Below are positions 22,734 through 62,194 of a DNA stretch of 64,000 nucleotides, in pieces (within the stretch, counting starts at the first letter, position 1; each line of letters starts with the position of its first letter). The position numbers and the translations under genes are program-made. A model generated the notes under the pieces. That model saw only the letters and a program-made list of their open reading frames with translations, was not told the DNA's origin and searched no databases. The DNA is from Dermacentor variabilis (Eukaryota > Arthropoda > Arachnida > Ixodida > Ixodidae): contig NC_134568.1 of assembly GCF_050947875.1 (NCBI RefSeq), positions 264,576,815 to 264,640,814 on the forward strand, read 5' to 3'.

Positions 22734-22889
22734 AATTTTCCACCGGATTAAACAAAATCTGCGTGTTGGTAAAATTGCACAAACACTTCTGGAGATTGGC
22801 CTGATCCCGGTGACCAGAACCGGTAACGCACTCCCTCACCAGAGCAGGATTGGCCACCCTGGTGCAGTACTTGGCCACAAACCTCCTAT

Positions 22890-23747
22890 ATGAACACAAC
22901 AATCAAACCCCGGCCCTCAGTCCCCAGCAGCTGCGAAGCAACTGACCACGGCGGCGGTCAGACCTGCGACGCAGCAGAGGGTGCTAAGAATCCCTGGTTC
23001 CGGATAGGCCGCCATTGGAATCTGAACCTGGCAACGTTTAACGCTAGAACGTTGTCTAGTGAGGCGAGTCTAGCAGTGCTATTAGAGGAATTCGAGGGCA
23101 GTAAATGGGATATAATAGGGCTCAGTGAAGTTAGGAAGCCAAAAGAAGCATATACAGTGCTAAAAAGCGGGCACGTCGTGTGCTACCGGGGCTTAGCGGA
23201 GGGACGAGAACTAGGAGTCGGATTCCTGATTAATAAGAATACAGCTAGTAACATACAGGAATTCTATAGCATTAACGAGTGGGTGGCAGGTCTTGTTGTG
23301 AAACTTAATAACAGGTACAAACTGAAGGTTGTACAGGTCTATGCCCCTACATCCAGTCATGATGACCAGGAAGTCGAGAGCTTTTATGAAGACGTGGAAT
23401 CGGCGATGGGTAAAGTCAAAACAAAATACACTATACTGATGGACGACTTCAATGCCGAGGTAGGCAAGAAGCAGGCTGGAGACAAGGCAGTGGGGGAATA
23501 TGGCATAGGCACTACGAATAGCAGGGGAGAATTATTAGTAGAGTTTGCGGAACAGAATAATATGCGGATAATGAATACCTTCTTCCGCAAGCGGGTTAGA
23601 CGAAAGTGGACGTGGAGGAGCCCGAACGGCGAGACTAGGAATGAAATAGACTTCAGAATCTGCGCTAACCCTGGCATCATACAAGATGTGGACGTGCTCA
23701 GCAAGGTGCGCTGCAGTAAGATGGTAAGATGCAGTAAGATGCAGTAA
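22890..23747 (+). pseudogene. RTE ORF part 1: APE-type endonuclease
   Basis: Starts at the ATG at 22890, about 155 bp after the tRNA-like head, and encodes an apurinic-like endonuclease that would nick target DNA for target-primed reverse transcription. Visible motifs in order are Asn-Ala-Arg-Thr (about residue 52), Ser-Glu-Val-Arg (about 79), Gln-Val-Tyr-Ala-Pro-Thr (about 150), Asp-Asp-Phe-Asn-Ala (about 187; the family norm is Gly-Asp-Phe-Asn, so the Gly is replaced) and Asn-Glu-Ile-Asp-Phe (about 255). The terminal Ser-Asp-His block with the catalytic His is gone. At that place a 10-bp unit has expanded and brings the stop at 23745. The downstream reverse transcriptase is in the same frame, so this was once a single ORF. 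Confidence 0.85.
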
Positions 23748-23762
23748 GATGCAGTAAGATGG
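23713..23762 (+). repeat. 10-bp tandem repeat inside the RTE ORF
   Basis: GCAGTAAGAT occurs four times (23713, 23731, 23741, 23751), the first two separated by a GGTAAGAT-like spacer. The expansion removes the endonuclease His region and adds in-frame TAA (23745) and TAG (23763). Confidence 0.9.
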
Positions 23763-23765
23763 TAG

Positions 23766-25872
23766 AATAGGATGGTAAGAACTCGAATTAGCCTAGACCT
23801 GAGGAGGGAACGGAAGAAACTGGTACATAAGAAGCCGATCAATGAGTTAGCGGTAAGAAGGAAAAAAGAGGAATTCCAGATCAAGCTACAGGACAGGTAT
23901 TCAGCTTTAACTCAGGAAGAGGACCTCAGTGTCGAAGCAATGAACGACAATCTTGTGGGCATCATTAAGGAGTGTGCAATAGAAGTCGGTGGTAACTCCG
24001 TTAGACAGGATACGAGTAAGCTATCGCAGGAGACGAAAGATCTGATCAAGAAACGCCAATGTATGAAAGCCTCTAGCCCTACAGCTAGAATAGAACTGGC
24101 AGAACTTTCGAACTTAATCAACAAGCGTAAGACAGCTGACATAAGGAAGTATAATATGAATAGAATTGAACATGCTCTCAGGAACGGAGGAAGCCTAAAA
24201 GCAGTGAAGAAACTAGGAATAGGCAACAATCAGATGTATGCGTTAAGAGACAAAGCCGGCAATATCATTACTAATAGGGGTGAGATAGTTCAAGTGGCTG
24301 AGGAGTTCTATAGAGATTTATACAGTACCAGTGGCACCCACGGCGATAATGGAAGAGAGAATAGTCTAGAGAAATTCGAAATCCCACAGGTAACGCCGGA
24401 AGAAGTAAAGAAAGCCTTGGGAGCTATGCAAAGGGGGAAGGCAGCTGGGGAGGATCAAGTAACAGCAGATTTGTTGAACGATGGTGGGCAGATTGTTCTA
24501 GAGAAACTGGCCATCCTGTATACGCAATGCCTCATGACCTCGAGCGTACTGGAATCTTGGAAGAACGCTAACATAATCCTAATCCATAAGAAAGGGGACG
24601 CCAAAGACTTGACAAATTATAAACCGATAAGCTTACTCTCCGTTGCCTACAAGGTATTTACTAAGGTAATCGCAAATAGAATCAAGAACACCTTAGACTT
24701 CTGTCAAGCAAAGGACCAGGCAGGATTCCGTAAAGGCTACTCAACAATAGACCATATTCACACTATCAATCAGGTGATAGAGAAATGTGCGGAATATAAC
24801 CAACCCTTATATATAGCTTTCATTGATTACGACAAAGCATTTGATTCTGTCGAAACCTCAGCAGTCATGTAGGCATTACGGAATCAGGGTGTAGACGAGC
24901 CGTATGTATATATGCTGAAAGATATCTATAGCGGCTGCACAGCCACCGTAGTCATCCATAAAGAAAACAACAAAATCCCAATAAAGAAAGGCGTCAGGCA
25001 GGGAGATACAATCTCTCCAATGCTATTCACAGCGTGTTTACAGGAGGTATTCAGAGACCTGTATTGGGAAGAATTGGGGACAAAAGTTAACGGGGAATAC
25101 CTTAGTATCTTGCGATTCGCTGATGATATTGCCTTGCTTAGTAACTCAGGGGACCAATTGGAATACATGCGCACTGACCTGGAGAGGCAAAGCAGAAGAG
25201 TGGGTCTAAAAACTAATCTGCAGAAAACTAAAGTAATGTTTAACAGTCTCGGAAGAGAACAGCAATTGACAATAGGTAGCGAGGAACTGGAAGTGGTAAA
25301 GGAACGCATCTACTTAGGGCAGGTAGTGACGGCGGATCGGGATCATGAGACGGAAATAATCAGAAGAATAAGGATGGGTTGGGGTGCGTTTGGCAGGCAT
25401 TCTCAGATCATGAACAGCAGGTTGCCATTATCCCTTAAGAGAAAAGTGTATAATAGCTGTGTCTTACCTGTACTCACCTACGGGGCAGAAACCTGGAGGC
25501 TTACGAAAAGGGTTCTTCTTAAATTGAGGACGACGCAACGAGCTATGGAAAGAAGAATGGTGGGTGTAACGTTAAGGGATAAGAAAAGAGCAGATTGGGT
25601 GAGGGAACAAAGGCGAGTTAATGACATCTTAGTTGAAATCAAGAAAAAGAAATGGGACATGGGCAGGACATGTAATGAGGAGGGAAGTTAACCGATGGTC
25701 ATTAAGGGTTACGGACTGGATTCCAAGAGAAGGGAAGCGTAGCAGGGGGCGGCAGAAAGTTAGGTGGGCGGATGAGATTAAGAAGTTTGCAGGGACGACA
25801 TGGCCACAATTAGTACATGACCGGGGTTGTTGGAGATATATGGGAGAGGCCTTTGCCCTGCAGTGGGCGTAA
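23766..25872 (+). pseudogene. RTE ORF part 2: reverse transcriptase and C-terminus
   Basis: Continues in the frame of the endonuclease. It encodes a linker, then reverse transcriptase fingers and palm: Lys-Ala-Ala-Gly-Glu-Asp (24439-24456), Ile-Leu-Ile-His-Lys-Lys-Gly-Asp (about 24576-24600), Asp-Gln-Ala-Gly-Phe-Arg (24715-24732) and Ile-Asp-Tyr-Asp-Lys-Ala-Phe-Asp-Ser (24822-24848, first catalytic Asp). Then come Gly-Val-Arg-Gln-Gly-Asp (24990-25007) and Phe-Ala-Asp-Asp (25119-25130, remaining catalytic pair). A TAG stop interrupts it at 24870. After 25658 one extra G shifts the frame, and the C-terminal Trp/Arg-rich block (Gly-His-Val-Met-Arg-Arg to the stop at 25870) is read in another frame. 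The same block survives in the fragment at 6849-7130. Confidence 0.88.
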
Positions 25873-53581: not shown

Positions 53582-54009
53582 TGTCACGTTGTAGTGACGT
53601 TCAAGAACACATTAGCAAAACTGTGACTGACGAAACTAACTTTTTATTGGGCGAACCTGTGCCCACAAAACAGACTACATGCAAAGCACAACGATAGCGG
53701 CGAACACAGTCGGCGATCGTCGAAATCTGCTCAGCGGATCAAGCGCGTCGGCTTTTATACTTGAGTGGTCGAAGGTTCCGGAGTAATCGCTGGTGCCCGC
53801 GTGTCTTCCAGAAAGTACTGCGCAATTCGCGTCGCGCGTGCATTAAGATTACACAAGGTCCCGTGACAACAGACGACGGACAGAATTATCGATAACACTC
53901 GAGAAACTTCCGACACGTACAGGCGCGTGCTGCACTGAGCGATAACGTTTAACATTTGTTAGCCGGTGAAAAGCTGTCATCCGAGAAAGATAAACAAGTA
54001 CACGTGTCA
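53582..54009 (-). mobile_element. Solo LTR of a gypsy-type retrotransposon
   Basis: This 428-bp unit starts TGTCACG and ends CGTGTCA (plus strand), so it has TG...CA ends with short inverted termini. It is flanked by ATAT (53578-53581 and 54010-54013), a 4-bp duplication. On the minus strand it carries TATAAAA (rc of 53753-53759) and, about 110 bp further, AATAAA (rc of 53643-53648), the normal order of an LTR promoter and poly(A) signal. That fixes the orientation. No internal coding region is present, so this is the product of LTR-LTR recombination. It is unrelated in sequence to the LTRs of the element 114 bp to the right. Confidence 0.82.
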
Positions 54010-54119
54010 ATATTTCGCCAGTCAGCCCCACTGCTTTGCTTACGCACTAGAGTAATGACGCTTGAATGAATGCTGAGAGAGTGAGAGAGAGAGAGAGAGA
54101 GAAACGGGGTGGGAAATGC

Positions 54120-54123
54120 AGGG
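54120..54123. repeat. Left 4-bp target duplication of the Gmr1-like element
   Basis: AGGG, repeated at 60970-60973. Confidence 0.85.
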
Positions 54124-54261
54124 TGTTGCGTTTCGCCTGCGACACGTGGTTTTGCCGGCGCGACTGCGGCGGGGCGGCAGACATTTTGGCCCGATCGTCG
54201 TCGCCGCAACACTCATCGGCAGGTGTTTCCAGGCGCGACTGCGGCGATGCGACCGCAAAGG

Positions 54262-54464
54262 ATCACCCTCTCATTCCAGTCATTGTGCCCGAAACAGGCG
54301 ATGCCAAAGCAGGGATCATCCTCTCATTCCAGTCATTGTGCCCGAAACAGGCGATGCCAAAGCAGGGATCATCCTCTCATTCCAGTCATTGTGCCCGAAA
54401 CAGGCGATGCCAAAGCAGGGATCATCCCCTCATTACAGTCATTGTGCCCGACCGGCATCGCTAC
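54262..54464 (+). repeat. 53-bp tandem repeats in U3
   Basis: Units start with ATCAYCCTCTCATTCCAG at 54262, 54315, 54368 and (partial, changed) 54421, giving about 3.8 copies. The same array lies at 60341-60543 in the 3' LTR. Arrays upstream of an LTR TATA often act as enhancers; that role is inferred. Confidence 0.95.
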
Positions 54465-54595
54465 AACAGGGTGCTACGAGATCGTGCTCGACATGGTGCT
54501 ACGGCAGCGCTACGACAGCGTGCGTCACCATTAGCCCATTGTACATTCACGTGCTCGTCTTTTGAGGGGTTCCTTCTTGCCCTCAACTGCGAGAG

Positions 54596-54603
54596 TATAA
54601 AAA
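54596..54603 (+). promoter_or_regulatory. LTR TATA box
   Basis: TATAAAAA in U3, about 115 bp before the poly(A) signal. Copy at 60675-60682. Confidence 0.8.
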
Positions 54604-54712
54604 CAGCTGCCCCGGACGCCAAAAGGAGGGCTCCGATTTCTTCTGTTGAGTGAAGTGCTCTCCCGTCTCTCTACTTCGGTCAAACCTGACCGCCAACTCT
54701 TTGCGATGTTAA

Positions 54713-54718
54713 AATAAA
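54713..54718 (+). terminator. LTR poly(A) signal
   Basis: AATAAA in the R region. The working copy is at 60792-60797 in the 3' LTR. Confidence 0.75.
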
Positions 54719-54892
54719 CAAGTTGTTTCGTTGTTACCAGTCGACTCATGCTTTGCCGGGACCTTCGGATGCTTCCAGTTGTACCCCAGGCCGCCAGGCC
54801 AACGCTACCCTTGGGGCTTGCGACCCAGGTACAACCACGGGCGTCAGCGCCGAGTTCCCAACAGATCGTACCAGCGGTCGGATCCAAACATC

Positions 54893-54912
54893 TGGTTGGC
54901 AGCGGTGAGATC
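54893..54912 (+). other. Putative primer-binding site (tRNA-Leu type)
   Basis: Two bases after the 5' LTR the sequence reads TGGTTGGCAGCGGTGAGATC. The complement of a eukaryotic tRNA-Leu (AAG/UAG) 3' end, as I remember it, gives TGG, then TGGCAGCGGTGGGAT. The match is good with one extra T and one mismatch. The tRNA assignment needs the tick tRNA sequence. Confidence 0.4.
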
Positions 54913-55244
54913 GCCTACGACTTCAAACAACTGTCTGCCAGCGGTGAGATCGCGACAACGGAGGCCAGCAGCGAAGAGATGCAGTTGACTGTATGCTGAG
55001 CAGCTCAGCGACGATCCGGGAGCAGTGCAACGAGCCCTGTGTGACGACTGGTTGCCTGCAGCGGAACGACTGCGCGGAATTCCTGCCTGCGAGGTTTGGT
55101 GAGTGCGGGACTTTCTTCTTCTGAGCTTTGCCAGGCTTTTGTTAGTGTCAGAAACAGAGCTGGTAGTTGTGGTTGTCGTTGCTGCCGGGTTAGTTTGCGG
55201 CAAGACAATAATAGGCAGTAGAGAAAGCAGCATTCAGAGCAGCC
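54913..55244 (+). other. Leader between primer-binding site and gag
   Basis: Contains a second copy of CAGCGGTGAGATCGC (about 54940), repeating part of the primer-binding region. No sustained frame. Confidence 0.6.
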
Positions 55245-56282
55245 ATGGATTTGAAGTCGTTGCGCAAACCGAAATTGTTGGAGCTTGCAAGAGAGATGGG
55301 TCTGGATGTCTCAGACAAACTAAGAAAACCTGAACTGCTAAAGGCTATTCTTGAGTTAGAGGCTGAGGATGACGAGCTGTCGGAATGCCTTGAGACTATT
55401 GAAGAGAGAGAGACTGCAAAAAGACAGGAGCGCGAACTTAAAGAACAGAAAGAAAAAGAAGAGCGTGAACGTAAAGAACAGAAAGAGCGAGAGCAACAAG
55501 AGCGTGACCGTCAACACGCTTTGGAAATGAAGCGTCTTGAGGTAGAGATGGAACGCGCTCGTAATGGAAGTCAGGCACACGGTGCAGGAGAACGCGTATT
55601 GTTCAAAATGACTGACCTGATGCGGCCGTTTAAGCTTGGAGAGGACATTGGTTTGTTCCTGGTTAACTTTGAGCGAACGTGCGAGAAGCAGGGGTTCTCT
55701 CGGGAAACGTGGCCACAGCGCTTGCTCACTTTGTTACCCGGCGAGGCGGCCGACGTAGTCGCTCGCTTGGATAGAGAGGAGGCAGAGGATTTCGACAAAG
55801 TAAAATCGAGTCTGCTAAAAAAGTACCGGCTGTCTGCGGAGGCGTTCCGTCGGAAGTTTCGGGAAAATGAGAAAGGCAGAAGTGAGTCATATACAGAGTT
55901 TGCGTATAGGCTTATGTCGAACATGCAGGAGTGGCTCAAAGAAGAGAAAGCGTTTGGTGACCACGATAAAGTTCTGCAGTGCTTCGGGCTAGAACAGTTT
56001 TATAGTCGGTTACCGGAGAACGTTCGATACTGGGTCTTGGATAGGCCAGACGTTTGTACGGTGGCTAAAGCCGCTGAGCTAGCCGAGGAGTTTGTGACGC
56101 GTCGAGCTCGCGGAGCTAAGGACGGTCAAAAGGGTGAATTTGGCTCGAAGTTTGAGAGGCCGAAGTTCACACCCATGAGAGCAAAGGGGGACACGCGTAG
56201 TGCGGATGCGAGTGAAAGCAGTCCGACCAGACGTAAAGAGACGGCGGCAGCCAAACGCAGAAAGCGGTTCGAGATGAGGTGA
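55245..56282 (+). CDS. gag: Gag: SAP-like start, coiled coil, SCAN-like capsid
   Basis: Starts at an ATG in good context (GCCATGG), 354 bp after the LTR. It encodes 345 residues before a TGA. Residues 2-40 form a Leu-rich SAP/Rho-N-like helix pair. Residues 50-105 are a highly charged Lys/Glu/Arg coiled coil. Residues 118-195 are capsid-like. Residues 195-285 read like a SCAN domain: a helix with Gln-Glu-Trp-Leu (228-231), then Leu-Glu-Gln-Phe (249-252), Leu-Pro-Glu (256-258) and Trp-Val (263-264). The basic tail runs into the stop. The CCHC zinc knuckle (Cys-x2-Cys-x4-His-x4-Cys, codons 56292-56333) lies just after the TGA in the same frame. The product of this copy should therefore lack its nucleic-acid-binding knuckle unless the stop is read through. 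CGA to TGA by CpG decay is the simplest origin. Confidence 0.9.
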   Translation: MDLKSLRKPKLLELAREMGLDVSDKLRKPELLKAILELEAEDDELSECLETIEERETAKRQERELKEQKEKEERERKEQKEREQQERDRQHALEMKRLEVEMERARNGSQAHGAGERVLFKMTDLMRPFKLGEDIGLFLVNFERTCEKQGFSRETWPQRLLTLLPGEAADVVARLDREEAEDFDKVKSSLLKKYRLSAEAFRRKFRENEKGRSESYTEFAYRLMSNMQEWLKEEKAFGDHDKVLQCFGLEQFYSRLPENVRYWVLDRPDVCTVAKAAELAEEFVTRRARGAKDGQKGEFGSKFERPKFTPMRAKGDTRSADASESSPTRRKETAAAKRRKRFEMR

Positions 56283-58478
56283 GCGGGCGTTTGTTATACG
56301 TGCCAGAAGCCGGGTCACTTTTCGGCGCAGTGTCCGGAAACAACACCAAAAGTTGTGTTTTTTTCAATAGGCAGCACTGACGAGAACATGAAGCTTCTCG
56401 AGCCTTACATGCGAGACCTCCTCGTGAACGGGAAAGAGTGCCGAGTGCTTCGCGATTCCGCAGCTACGATGGATGTAGTTCACCCGTCTTATGTAGAACC
56501 CCATATGTTCACGGGCGAGTGCGCATGGATCAAGCAAGCCGTGGAAGCTCATAGCGTGTGTCTGCCGGTAGCAAAAGTGCTTATTGAAGGACCTTTCGGA
56601 GCGCTTGAGACGGAGGCGGCAGTGTCATCTATGCTGCCCCCCCAGTACCCGTACCTATTTTCAAACAGGTCCGATCACCTCCTGCGCGAGAAGGGGCTTT
56701 TGTTTGGTGAAGCTAGTGTTCAGGCCTTAACCAGATCGAAGGTTCGGGAGCTCGCTGCAAAGGCGGTAGTTGCGGGGCCGACATTATCAAACAACGAAAA
56801 AGGGTCAGAGGCGCAGCAAGCTGATATTCCGAGCACGCCCGAACTGAATAAACTTGAGTCTGTAACGTTAAAGGCGCCAGATACTGGAGAGGAAACGCCC
56901 GACACGGGAAAGTTAGAAGAGCTATCTACTGATTTGCTCATCGCGCCTACGTCAGACGGACTTGATAGGTTGCTAAAAGTCAGCCGGTCGGCTTTGATAG
57001 CCGAGCAAAAGAAGGATGGTAGCCTAGAAAACATACGCTGCAATGTCAAAGAAGGTATCGCCAGGAAAAATGCGCGTTTTGTGGAAAGAGGTGGAGTCCT
57101 GTACCGGAAGTATCTAGACCGACGAGGAGTGGAGTTCGATCAGCTGATCGTGCCTCAATGCTATCGTCAGGATCTGTTGCGCTTGTCACACGGGGGTTCG
57201 TGGTCCGGACACCTAGGAGTTAAGAAAACTAAGGACCGTCTCTTGCAAGAGTACTATTGGCCAGGGTGTTTTCGGGACGCAGACCATTTCGTAAGGTCAT
57301 GTGACACCTGTCAGCGGGTGGGCAAACCAGGGGACAAATCGAGGGCGCCGTTGAAATTGGTACCTATCATTACGGAGCCTTTTAGACGGCTCGTTATTGA
57401 TACTGTGGGACCTCTGCCGGTAACAGCCACGGGGTACAGACACATTTTGACTGTGATCTGCCCAGCGACAAAGTTCCCTGAAGCAGTGCCGCTTAAAGAA
57501 CTCAGCTCAGTTGAGATAGTTAATGCACTACTGTCCATATTTGCGCGAGTTGGTTTCCCTGCGGAAATCCAATCAGACCAGGGCACAGTGTTTACTAGCG
57601 CTTTGACGACAACTTTTCTCGAAAGGTGTGGGGTAAAGCTGCTACACAGCTCAGTGTACCACCCACAGTCGAATTCCGTTGAGAAGCTCCACTCCGTCAT
57701 GAAGCGCGTGTTGAGAGCGTTGTGTTTTGAACATCGAACTGACTGGGAGCTGTGTCTGCCTGGGGTGATGTTTGCTTTAAGGACCGCGCCGCATGCGGCT
57801 ACGGGGTTTTCGCCAGCTGAACTGGTGTACGGTCGCTCGCTTCGGTCTCCGCTTCGCATGCTTCGAGAATCATGGGAAGGTAGGGGCGACGACCCAGTCG
57901 TGGTGGAGTACGTGCTTAAGCTCCTCGAACGCTTAAGAAGGGCACAGGAGTTGTCAGGTGAAGCAATGACAAAGGCCCAGCAGAGGGCCAAGGTTTATTA
58001 TGATCGGACAGCCAGGGCCCGTCGTTTTGAGGTTGGCGATGAGGTCATGATATTGCGCACATCGCTAAACAACAAACTAGACGTGCAGTGGGAGGGCCCA
58101 GCACGAATTGTTCAGAAACTGTCGGACGTTAACTACGTGGTAAGTCTGCCAGGAAAGCGGAAAGCACAGCAAGTTTACCACTGTAATCTGCTCAAACCTT
58201 ATAGACAAAGGGAAGCAGTGGTGTGCATGATGGTAAACGTTCCTGAAGAGCTTCCGATCGAGCTTCCGGGACTAGGCTCAGTGACGAACAGGGAAGACAC
58301 CGGTCAAGTCATTAGTGACCTTATCAGTAGAGCACCGCTGTCGCCCGAGCAGAAAACCGAACTACACCGGCTATTACAAGAGTTTCAAGGTCTGTTCTCT
58401 GAGAGGCCTGGTAGGACTTCTGTACTTACTCATGATATAGAACTTACCTCCCCAGAGCCAGTACGATCCAAGGCGTAA
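56283..58478 (+). pseudogene. pol: Pol part 1: zinc knuckle, protease, integrase
   Basis: Same frame as gag, from the TGA to a TAA at 58476. Order: zinc knuckle (56292-56333); retropepsin-like protease with Asp-Ser-Ala at 56454-56462, where retropepsins normally have Asp-Ser/Thr-Gly; a linker of about 120 residues; integrase with zinc-binding His, His, Cys, Cys (residues 279, 286, 316, 319 counted from the codon at 56355) and catalytic Asp349, Asp408, Glu443. The last pair is separated by 34 residues, one fewer than the usual 35. A GPY/F-like C-terminal region (562-600) follows. About 90 residues then lead into reverse transcriptase. Integrase inserts the cDNA in the nucleus; protease matures the polyprotein. 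The TAA stands in a region that connects to reverse transcriptase and cuts off everything after it. Confidence 0.9.
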
Positions 58479-59717
58479 CGGGTGTCACCCCGCCAGAGCG
58501 ATATTATGGAGGCTGAGGTAAAGAAAATGCTACAGCTCGGTGTTATTGAGGCAGGTGAGAGTGATTATACCTCCCCTTTGATTTTAGTTGAGGTACCGGG
58601 CAAGGAACCTCGTCCTTGCGTCGACTACCGCAGGCTTAATTCCATCACTAAGGATCAAATTTATCCGATCCCTAACATCGAGGAGCGCCTTGAGAAAGTT
58701 AGTAGCGCTCAGTTTATTTCCACCCTAGATCTTGTCAGGGGTTATTGGCAGGTTCCACTTACAGAAGAGGCTAGTAGGTATGCGGCGTTCATTTCACCAA
58801 TGGGAACATTCCGTCCTAAAGTGTTGAGTTTTGGTTTGAAGAACGCGCCATACTGTTTTTCAAGTCTCATGGATAAAGTGTTGCGGGGACAGCAAGAATT
58901 CGCTTTACCGTATCTAGACGACGTAGCGATATTCTCCGCATCCTGGTCTGAGCATATGGCACACTTGCGGGCAGTGCTAACCCGCCTGCGCGAAGCGGGC
59001 TTGACAGTCAAGGCTCCTAAGTGCCAGTTAGCACAGGCCGAGGTTGTCTACCTCGGTCACGTGATTGGTCAGGGTCGTCGCCGCCCCTCTGAAATAAAAG
59101 TGGCCGCTGTGCGAGACTTTCCGCAACCGCGCACCAAGACCGATATTCGGTCGTTCTTGGGTGTCGCCGGCTACTATCAGAGGTACATCCCTAGGTACTC
59201 TGATATCGCGGCTCCCCTGACGGATGCTCTAAGAAAGACAGAGCCTCAAACAGTCGTCTGGGACGAGACCAAGGAAAGAGCTTTTAGCGCCCTAAAGAGT
59301 GCCCTAACAAGCCAGCCTGTGCTACGATCGCCAGACTATACAAAAGGGTTCATTGTTCAGTGCGATGCTAGTGAGCGAGGCATGGGCGTTGTACTGTGCC
59401 AACGGGAAAAGGGAGAAGTAGAACACCCCGTCCTGTATGCTAGTCGTAAGCTGACCAGTCGTGAGCAGGCGTATAGCGCCACCGAGAAAGAGTGTGCGTG
59501 TCTCGTGTGGGCCGTTCAGAAATTGTCATGCTATCTAGCCGGCTCGAGGTTTATCATTGAGACGGATCACTGCCCTCTCCAATGGCTGCAGACCATCTCT
59601 CCCAAAAATGGCCGCCTCCTGCGCTGGAGCCTCGCTTTACAACAATATTCCTTTGAGGTGCGTTACAAAAAGGGGAGTCTCAACGGTAACGCCGATGGCT
59701 TAAGTCGAAGCCCCTAA
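58479..59717 (+). pseudogene. pol: Pol part 2: reverse transcriptase and RNase H
   Basis: Continues the frame after the TAA at 58476 with no good start of its own. Residues are counted from the codon at 58482. Reverse transcriptase shows Pro-Cys-Val-Asp-Tyr-Arg (45-50), Thr-Leu-Asp-Leu (81-84, catalytic Asp83), Phe-Gly-Leu-Lys-Asn-Ala-Pro (117-123) and Tyr-Leu-Asp-Asp (144-147). The connection domain has Leu-Gly-His-Val-Ile (191-195) and Phe-Leu-Gly-Val-Ala-Gly-Tyr-Tyr-Gln-Arg-Tyr (225-235). RNase H keeps its acidic set Asp295, Glu337, Asp362 and Asp405. It ends with Ala-Asp-Gly-Leu-Ser-Arg. All catalytic residues are intact, so the only visible defect is the upstream stop. Position after integrase marks the Gmr1-like order. 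Confidence 0.92.
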
Positions 59718-60202
59718 CGTAGGAATCAGCCTCAAAATTGTTTGTTACTGATGTTTTCCTTCCTGAGGCAGGATTTGTTTTAACATATTGCTTTTGTTTA
59801 GTGTTTCAAAGTGATGATATGCTTTCTAGTGCAATTTTTCAATTTGTGGACGCGTTCTGAGTGATGCTAGACTACTGTAAGGAACTAGGCAGTGGTATAA
59901 AAAGGGGAAAGAGCCTGGCAGGGCTTAGTGAGGGTTGTGCCGTGCTTGCTGACTGAGCGGTTGAGTTTCAGCGTAGTTCTAACGCTTGCCGGGAACGAGA
60001 ACAAAAATGTGAACTCTCCCGAAGTCACTTTGCAGTGTCCCGTGCGAACCTGAACGAGAGAACGAGGCCTTCTCTGTGCGCTGCGCTCAAGAAACGTCGA
60101 GGGACGCCCGACTTCGGTTATGTGCATCATCGAGCGACATCCCTCCGGACAGCGGATGCAGTCCCCTGTCCATCGGGATCTCCTTCCCCCGGCGGGGCGG
60201 TC
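59718..60202 (+). other. 3' untranslated part before the 3' LTR
   Basis: 485 bp without coding capacity. A TATA-like TATAAAAA lies at 59896-59903. The bases right before the LTR (GGCGGGGCGGTC) form only a poor polypurine tract. Confidence 0.7.
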
Positions 60203-60969
60203 TGTTGCGTTTCGCCTGCGACACGTGGTTTTGCCGGCGCGACTGCGGCGGGGCGGCAGACATTTTGGCCCGATCGTCGTCGCCGCAACACTCATCGGCA
60301 GGTGTTTCCAGGCGCGACTGCGGCGATGCGACCGCAAAGGATCACCCTCTCATTCCAGTCATTGTGCCCGAAATAGGCGATGCCAAAGCAGGGATCATCC
60401 TCTCATTCCAGTCATTGTGCCCGAAACAGGCGATGCCAAAGCAGGGATCATCCTCTCATTCCAGTCATTGTGCCCGAAACAGGCGATGCCAAAGCAGGGA
60501 TCATCCCCTCATTACAGTCATTGTGCCCGACCGGCATCGCTACAACAGGGTGCTACGAGATCGTGCTCGACATGGTGCTACGGCAGCGCTACGACAGCGT
60601 GCGTCACCATTAGCCCATTGTACATTCACGTGCTCGTCTTTTGAGGGGTTCCTTCTTGCCCTCAACTGCGAGAGTATAAAAACAGCTGCCCCGGACGCCA
60701 AAAGGAGGGCTCCGATTTCTTCTGTTGAGTGAAGTGCTCTCCCGTCTCTCTACTTCGGTCAAACCTGACCGCCAACTCTTTGCGATGTTAAAATAAACAA
60801 GTTGTTTCGTTGTTACCAGTCGACTCATGCTTTGCCGGGACCTTCGGATGCTTCCAGTTGTACCCCAGGCCGCCAGGCCAACGCTACCCTTGGGGCTTGC
60901 GACCCAGGTACAACCACGGGCGTCAGCGCCGAGTTCCCAACAGATCGTACCAGCGGTCGGATCCAAACA
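60203..60969 (+). repeat. 3' LTR (767 bp)
   Basis: Colinear with 54124-54890 at an offset of 6,079 bp, without indels. The single difference is T at 60374 for C at 54295. Confidence 0.96.
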
Positions 60970-60973
60970 AGGG
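60970..60973. repeat. Right 4-bp target duplication of the Gmr1-like element
   Basis: AGGG, matching 54120-54123. Confidence 0.85.
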
Positions 60974-62194
60974 AGGCTAACCCGAAAAGATTCTGGTTTG
61001 CTACCCTGCAGTGTGGGAAATGAACGACGGCGCTGAGAATGAACAGGCGAGTAATGAATACTCCCTAGAGTATTGACAGTTGCCTGCGGCGCTGAGACGG
61101 CAGCAAAGGAATCTTCAAAGAAAAGACAAAAATTCTGTTGTTATGGCCCCTTGCCGGAGCTTTCTCATACACGTGCTTCGAAGCTACGCGTGTTTGTCTG
61201 CAGGAATGCAGGCGCCGATTACCAACTACGCTCGTTTGTCCATTATAATGGCGGCTATTCATTGGAGGGACAGGAGCACGGAGAACTGCTCTGAAGCTGC
61301 AACCACGTGCAACGCATTTGCGAGTTATTTTCGGCGTGGTGCCGGCCGGCGTTGGCGCGTCAATTTCACACCGCGCGATAACCCAGTCTCTCGTTACTTC
61401 CCGAAGACACACCGTACGCTATCATCGGTGTTAATCGGCATAACCATGTCCAGCCATATTCGGTCGGAAACTCAGCGCGGAGTTTGGGCCGCGCGAAATG
61501 AATGTGTCGATACTGGCCGATGCAGTGCCGAAGAAGCCTTCCCGCGGGTGCTCGGGCGCCAGCAGCGAGTTCTGTCCAAAGAACTTTTATGCAGAGCAGT
61601 TTTTAGCGCTGATATTGGCAGTTTATTGATGGCGTTTAACGTCCCAAAGCAATTGCTTCGTAAGCTAACCACTCTGATTACGAAATTTCTTGGGCCCATG
61701 GCCGTCAGAAATATTGCAACTCATCTCTGCAGGCACAACAGCGTACAATTTCTGAAGGAATCAAGAAAATCAAGAAGCTACTAAATCTGATTAGGATACA
61801 TTTCAAGATCTTCTCTCATCCTTTTATTCCTGTTCTTGTTGAACTGCACACGTATGCATTTTAGCTTATTTACATCTGTCTTCGTGTTTCGGTAGCTCTT
61901 GCGTCCGTGTTCACGATTGTTATGCTTGGAATCTAGCACTGGAGAGGGAGTTCATTTGCGCCTACTCGAGAACATTTATATGTAAGATGTAGGAAAACTT
62001 TAGAAATGATGTAACTGTAGTGTTTTCTAATCAATGCTGCTGTTATAACCATCGTTCTGGACTCAACCGTAATGTTCACGAAGAGAAGTATCTGGTAAGC
62101 ACCAGCCTCTCCTTGAATGCAGTAAATGCAGAAAAAGAAAAGAAGCACGCGGCCATTGGAGATGATGCAGCTGAGGTTTACAGATTGTTAGCAG
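60974..62194. other. Intergenic DNA, nothing firmly recognised
   Basis: A 235-codon plus-strand frame (61080-61784) has mixed composition and no domain. A short piece (TGGCGTTTAACGTCCCAAA, near 61629) resembles the end of a SINE-like repeat. I do not call a gene. Confidence 0.45.

Follow-up and report, generated by a model that had tools for sequence, protein, structure and literature searches.

The window analyzed here, a 64,000-nucleotide stretch of the genome of the hard tick Dermacentor variabilis, very probably (probability about 0.9) holds an inserted LTR retrotransposon that is young, present in many copies, and part of the Gmr1-like branch of Ty3/gypsy. We file the element with the Gmr1-like Ty3/gypsy elements because it combines a SCAN-type Gag with integrase encoded upstream of reverse transcriptase (RT). 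Along a single plus-strand frame, the order is Gag (SCAN), CCHC zinc knuckle, protease motif, integrase, RT, and RNase H. The features are as follows (window positions):

54120..54123, no strand, 5' target-site duplication AGGG
54124-60969, plus strand, complete LTR element (LTR, target-duplication, and domain evidence)
54124..54890, plus strand, 5' LTR with TG..CA ends
54260-54451, plus strand, 53-nt tandem units in the 5' LTR
near 54596, plus strand, TATAAAA-like box in the 5' LTR, read by eye
near 54713, plus strand, AATAAA in the 5' LTR, read by eye
54893..54911, plus strand, likely primer-binding site, starting with TGG 2 nt past the 5' LTR (sequence reading)
55245..56279, plus strand, gag with a SCAN domain at residues 199-287 (Pfam PF02023, 3.9e-14)
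56283..58475, plus strand, zinc knuckle, protease motif, integrase, and linker, closed by an in-frame TAA
56292..56333, plus strand, CCHC zinc knuckle (Pfam, 7e-6)
56454..56468, plus strand, putative protease active-site motif D-S-A (motif alone)
57150..58205, plus strand, integrase with H2C2 zinc domain, rve core, and p58/GPY-F-like C-terminal domain (Pfam, 4.3e-18, 5e-10, and 1.5e-10)
58479..59714, plus strand, RT (Pfam, 9.5e-30) and RNase H (Pfam, 1.1e-36)
60203..60969, plus strand, 3' LTR, 767 bp, partner of the 5' LTR
60970..60973, no strand, 3' target-site duplication AGGG

Structure of the copy in the window

A first-pass annotation, made from the sequence alone, had reported matching LTRs around the coding region. 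The two LTRs, at 54124-54890 and 60203-60969, are each 767 bp long with TG..CA termini, are identical at 766/767 sites, and are flanked by AGGG, in full agreement with that report. The same annotation had placed the element at 56283..59717, which is the middle of the element but omits the LTRs and gag. Its description of one reading frame was correct in that all domains lie in one plus frame; however, this frame is not open, as a TGA at 56280-56282 splits Gag from the zinc knuckle and a TAA at 58476-58478 splits integrase from RT. Because of these two in-frame stops, the window copy is predicted to be unable to make full Pol.

Motifs and Pfam agree on the annotated domains and on integrase preceding RT and RNase H: the integrase contains the zinc motif H-X6-H-X29-C-X2-C and the catalytic motif D-X58-D-X34-E, and the RT motif YLDD is located at 58911. 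For the annotated protease, a D-S-A motif was found at 56454 as its single sign, while Pfam gave no protease match in the window element. For RT and RNase H, the Pfam families matched were RVT_1 and RT_RNaseH, with no copia RT family listed. Among solved structures, the best match of the window RT-RNase H was that of Ty3 (4ol8; 3e-69), and the nearest structures to the window integrase were the foamy virus and Ty3 integrases (Ty3, 1.1e-25); Gag matched no solved structure at 0.001.

The putative primer-binding site at 54893..54911 may be similar to the 3' terminus of animal tRNA-Leu. No sign of env was seen downstream of RNase H, where two long frames that run into the 3' LTR had no Pfam match. 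Rfam gave nothing at the gathering threshold over 54000-61100, ARAGORN found no tRNA genes in the window, and no relatives of the element were found in a viral contig collection. Each window LTR contains 3.6 copies of the 53-nt unit (54260-54451 and 60339-60530), and the aligned LTR length varies from 661 to 840 nt among the measured copies. Elsewhere in the window, the region 22827-25691 (plus strand) has RT matches (2.7e-12 and 3.7e-17) in frames broken by stops and a weak endonuclease match below the cut-off (Exo_endo_phos, 1.8e-4), and is probably an old LINE copy.

Copies of the family and their domain order

We fetched 30 loci around the best integrase matches in the genome, the window copy being one of them, and analyzed a 4,056-nt stretch of each. 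In all 30, integrase precedes RT, which precedes RNase H, at the same positions of the fetched stretch (integrase zinc motif at residue 513, YLDD at 1087, and RNase H motif at 1303). Stops were absent from the stretch in 24 of the 30 loci; the window copy has 2, and five others have 8 to 24, nearly all of them upstream of integrase. Because 24 of 30 loci are stop-free and the window copy has two stops, the lineage looks alive, while the window copy does not. More broadly, all 115 scored integrase matches (of 57,112 first-look candidates) were 99-100% identical to the query, and 87 of these sit in open frames of at least 1,470 aa, which is long enough for gag-pol. In one subfamily (L067; G000 C1:18924700-18929300), integrase, RT, and RNase H are 99% identical to the window copy and Gag just 91%, a hint that Gag changes faster or has recombined.

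The genome also contains a second family, seen when a Dermacentor albipictus Gag-type protein gave 83 scored matches at 77-90% identity, many with stops; the one copy that was read (L068) is integrase-first, and its integrase, RT, and RNase H are 69%, 70%, and 73% identical, respectively, to those of the window element. Among 239 proteins examined, all 81 relatives that match the window integrase together with RT or RNase H are integrase-first, a count from proteins chosen by likeness to the window element and including many with a partial integrase. Ty3/gypsy elements usually have RT first, as the first-pass annotation had stated. In the Ty3 polyprotein, RT-RNase H (614-1009) precedes integrase (1098-1443), and of 16 other RT loci examined in the same tick genome, 9 match both domains and are all RT-first, and 7 match neither. 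In the first RT family search, seven of eight loci (L001-L006 and L008) matched neither the window RT nor its integrase and were left unused.

Phylogeny and alternative explanations

The RT tree had 77 rows, with 66 of 97 candidate proteins kept, and a single branch (100/95) splits 29 integrase-first from 10 RT-first rows; 38 rows of unseen domain order lie outside this count. Similarly, in the integrase tree (72 rows; 61 of 81 candidate proteins kept; 38 rows outside the count), a single branch (100/97) splits 24 integrase-first from 10 RT-first rows. The RNase H tree, built by a quick method from 122 rows and few columns, splits 32 integrase-first from 9 RT-first rows at 84, with 81 rows outside the count; all nine RT-first rows fall within its smallest starred set around the window element, which has 61 rows. 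Thus, the RT and integrase trees agree, and RNase H resolves little. The conventional outgroups in these comparisons are few, consisting of Ty3 and nine tick loci that fall into about four close groups, and long-branch warnings apply to Ty3 and P0225 in the RT tree and to Ty3, L064, and P0093 in the integrase tree.

In both the RT and integrase trees, the group that includes the window element consists of tick and unnamed rows (named members: Amblyomma in the RT tree; Ornithodoros, Ixodes, and Rhipicephalus in the integrase tree), the named members of the adjoining group are spiders, and sea-turtle rows lie further out. No sequence of Gmr1, which itself comes from cod, is among the tree rows, and the link to deuterostomes is made by the sea-turtle proteins, among which the order was seen in P0120 alone.

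These data bear on three other explanations of the integrase-first order. A local rearrangement that moved integrase ahead of RT in the window copy alone has nothing beyond the unusual order to recommend it, and we give it practically no chance: 29 further loci keep both order and spacing, and the second-family copy L068 and the 81 two-domain relatives are integrase-first as well. We therefore rejected it, since the order is common to other copies in the genome. Scarcely more credible is a chimera in which a copia-like or other integrase was joined to a gypsy RT; the domain order is indeed that of copia, but the integrase, with its p58/GPY-F-like domain, is nearest to the foamy virus and Ty3 structures, and the integrase and RT trees both place the window element in the tick group adjoining the spider group. 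A copia chimera was rejected on the trees and the structure search, and the three trees lack the conflict between RT and integrase, placed in unrelated clades, that the first-pass annotation had named as grounds for abandoning its reading. Likewise, RT-first copies, which it had named as the mark of a local rearrangement, did not appear among the 30 sampled loci, window included.

It is improbable, though less so, that arachnid elements gained the integrase-first order independently and are not kin of Gmr1. The arachnid sequences do form their own clade, in trees without a Gmr1 reference; however, in the integrase tree the window side of the 100/97 branch includes the sea-turtle protein P0120, which is integrase-first, along with unnamed integrase-first rows, and in the RT tree the window side of the 100/95 branch includes sea-turtle rows of unseen order and integrase-first rows from outside the arachnid clade. 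Moreover, Gag carries the SCAN domain reported for Gmr1-like elements in two studies (PMC4131045, PMC3424704). The Gmr1-like assignment proposed in the first-pass annotation is thus supported by domain order and SCAN-type Gag. The lineage could already have a name, as one of the Ty3/gypsy clades Squirrel and Toxo of Ixodes scapularis, which we regard as possible but on the doubtful side. These two clades were described as new and likely Chelicerata-specific; a CCHC motif in gag, a GPY/F domain in integrase, LTRs with TG..CA ends, and 4-bp duplications are among their reported features (PMC4748124), and Ixodes holds close Gag and integrase relatives of the window element. Against this, the accessible part of that report makes no mention of an integrase-first order and describes two ORFs (PMC4748124), in contrast to the long single frames of the family studied here.

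Comparison with known elements

The Gmr1-like group is made up of those Ty3/gypsy elements that encode integrase ahead of RT (PMC3587641, PMC6238403, PMC8220671, PMC2774666). We found this order in the window copy and in 29 further loci. Pfam, the Ty3 structure match, and the trees assign the RT, RNase H, and integrase to Ty3/gypsy. The Gag is SCAN-type, and PF02023 was present in 78 of 106 Gag relatives among the matches listed. In frogs, SCAN is reported in over half of the Gmr elements and in no other elements (PMC4131045). Because only over half of the frog Gmr elements carry it, a SCAN Gag, which the tick element shares with them, is a common mark of Gmr1-like elements and not a strict definition. 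The tick element has the integrase-first order and Ty3/gypsy RT-RNase H in common with Gmr1, frog and other deuterostome elements, crustacean GyRex4 and GyLiva4, and annelid LGF3; it differs from them in its chelicerate host, with named tick and named spider rows in two neighboring groups. It may also differ in its single long frame, in which 87 of 115 scored matches from the tick lie.

The RT-RNase H and integrase of yeast Ty3 match those of the window element, but the Ty3 order is reversed, and a conventional RT-before-integrase arrangement is thus not that of the window element. Ty1/copia elements have the same order, protease-integrase-RT-RNase H (PMC3587641), but the window RT, RNase H, and integrase are of Ty3/gypsy and not copia type by Pfam, structure search (best match, Ty3), and trees. 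Squirrel and Toxo, likened here by description only, are chelicerate Ty3/gypsy elements with the same CCHC, GPY/F, TG..CA, and 4-bp duplication features, but are described with two ORFs (PMC4748124), while the element studied here mostly has one long frame.

The first-pass annotation had inferred a Gmr1-like lineage in chelicerates, from a group first described in deuterostomes. The tick lineage stands, but it is less new than implied: crustacean Gmr1-like elements, reported as the first in protostomes (PMC3587641), and those of an annelid (PMC8220671) precede it. In the literature searched, which mostly leaves subscription journals outside its coverage, we found no report of Gmr1-like elements in chelicerates. 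The tick element is therefore an extension of a known family with a newly recognized host range and not a new family.

Fish, frogs, shrimps, and a marine worm were already known to carry integrase-first elements. The present data show that a tick genome has many, recently active elements of this Ty3/gypsy plan, whose first description was in deuterostomes, that sequence records from other ticks and from spiders (Trichonephila, Araneus, and Oedothorax) contain it too, and that RT and integrase have been inherited together. Chelicerate elements are also shown to have the SCAN-type Gag from which the vertebrate SCAN domain is reported to derive (PMC3424704, PMC4592553), which suggests that this capsid type either predates vertebrates or has moved between phyla.

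Age, selection, and proposed replication cycle

To date insertions, we looked at 11 copies. Copy A, whose fetched stretches did not hold both LTRs, was unscored. The LTR pairs of the window copy and nine further copies had 11 mismatches in 7,331 aligned sites, or 0 to 4 per pair, gaps not counted; for copies B and C, the LTR alignment ended short of the LTR end. If substitution rates are assumed to lie between 2e-9 and 1e-8 per site per year, this divergence would correspond to about 0.1-0.4 million years. Six of the 11 copies (window, D, E, F, H, and J) have a 4-bp duplication; in copy G the flanks agree at 3 of 4 bases, copy I has no duplication, and the flanks of A, B, and C were unreadable. 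In copy I, internal sequence precedes the 5' LTR, as in a head-to-tail array. The claim of an active or recently active element therefore holds for the family, as judged from the ten LTR pairs, but not for the window copy, which is disabled by its two stops.

Substitutions were counted in 28 copies against the window copy, leaving out L027 (74 differences). In RT-RNase H, whose protein sequence is conserved among the sampled copies, changes common to at least two copies were 18 silent and 8 replacement, against a random expectation of 0.29 silent to 0.67 replacement, which suggests that the protein downstream of integrase is under selection while the family spreads; with singletons counted, there were 41 silent and 41 replacement changes. 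In integrase, 34 changes were silent and 5 replacement, a silent excess partly made by picking copies on integrase score.

From the sequence features, we propose that the transcript would start in the 5' LTR and that copies with an unbroken frame would be translated into a single Gag-Pol polyprotein, about 1,500 residues long, to be cut by the protease. Gag would build particles via its SCAN-like capsid part, RT would copy the element RNA from a tRNA primer, and integrase, freed from between protease and RT, would insert the DNA and thereby duplicate 4 bp of the target. Where integrase lies within the polyprotein would alter its release and not its chemistry, and the many young, long-frame copies would allow a comparative study of integrase position and polyprotein processing. 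The window copy may have been mobilized by proteins of sister copies or may have broken at or after insertion.

Relatives in other ticks

The tick host named in the first-pass annotation was supported by three protein searches, in each of which the best-scoring named relative was from a tick (Ornithodoros, Amblyomma, and Dermacentor). The window Gag is 89% identical to D. albipictus P0240, 50% identical to Dermacentor silvarum P0258, and 40-45% identical to three other D. albipictus proteins, which belong to other families; the D. albipictus Gag-type protein P0278 has matches of up to 90% in the window's genome, in the second family. Across genera, the window RT-RNase H (58479-59438) is 98.4% identical over 320 aa to Amblyomma americanum P0123. 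This value is far above those of three other Amblyomma queries against the window's genome, namely an A. americanum Gag-type query (best, 49%), an A. americanum RT query (best, 72%), and an Amblyomma maculatum query (52% over the main match, and as much as 60% in short fragments), in a small and uneven comparison of one Dermacentor and three Amblyomma queries. By this comparison the host looks closer to Dermacentor than to Amblyomma, which makes the P0123 match odd. Based on this difference, we considered a recent crossing of the arachnid Gmr1-like superfamily between tick genera, which we judge unlikely but worth noting as a lead from one protein; the P0123 match may reflect horizontal transfer, a contaminated contig, or slow RT change.

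Several database records contain Gag-like sequences in unusual contexts. P0270 and P0294 (an Anaplasma phagocytophilum "SCAN domain protein" and a protein from an Anaplasma MAG) resemble the tick-type SCAN Gag, and these records probably hold tick DNA. In P0323 of Dermacentor andersoni, the N-terminal part of Gag (82% identity over 116 aligned residues, without SCAN) is fused to C2H2 zinc fingers, possibly as a gene-model artifact or as a parallel to the vertebrate SCAN-zinc-finger fusions. Finally, in gene models of Ixodes persulcatus (P0290, P0296, P0298, P0326, and P0327), SCAN Gag is joined to EF-hand, trypsin, OATP, enoyl-CoA hydratase, and bile-acid symporter domains, and these fusions are probably the product of annotation across insertions.
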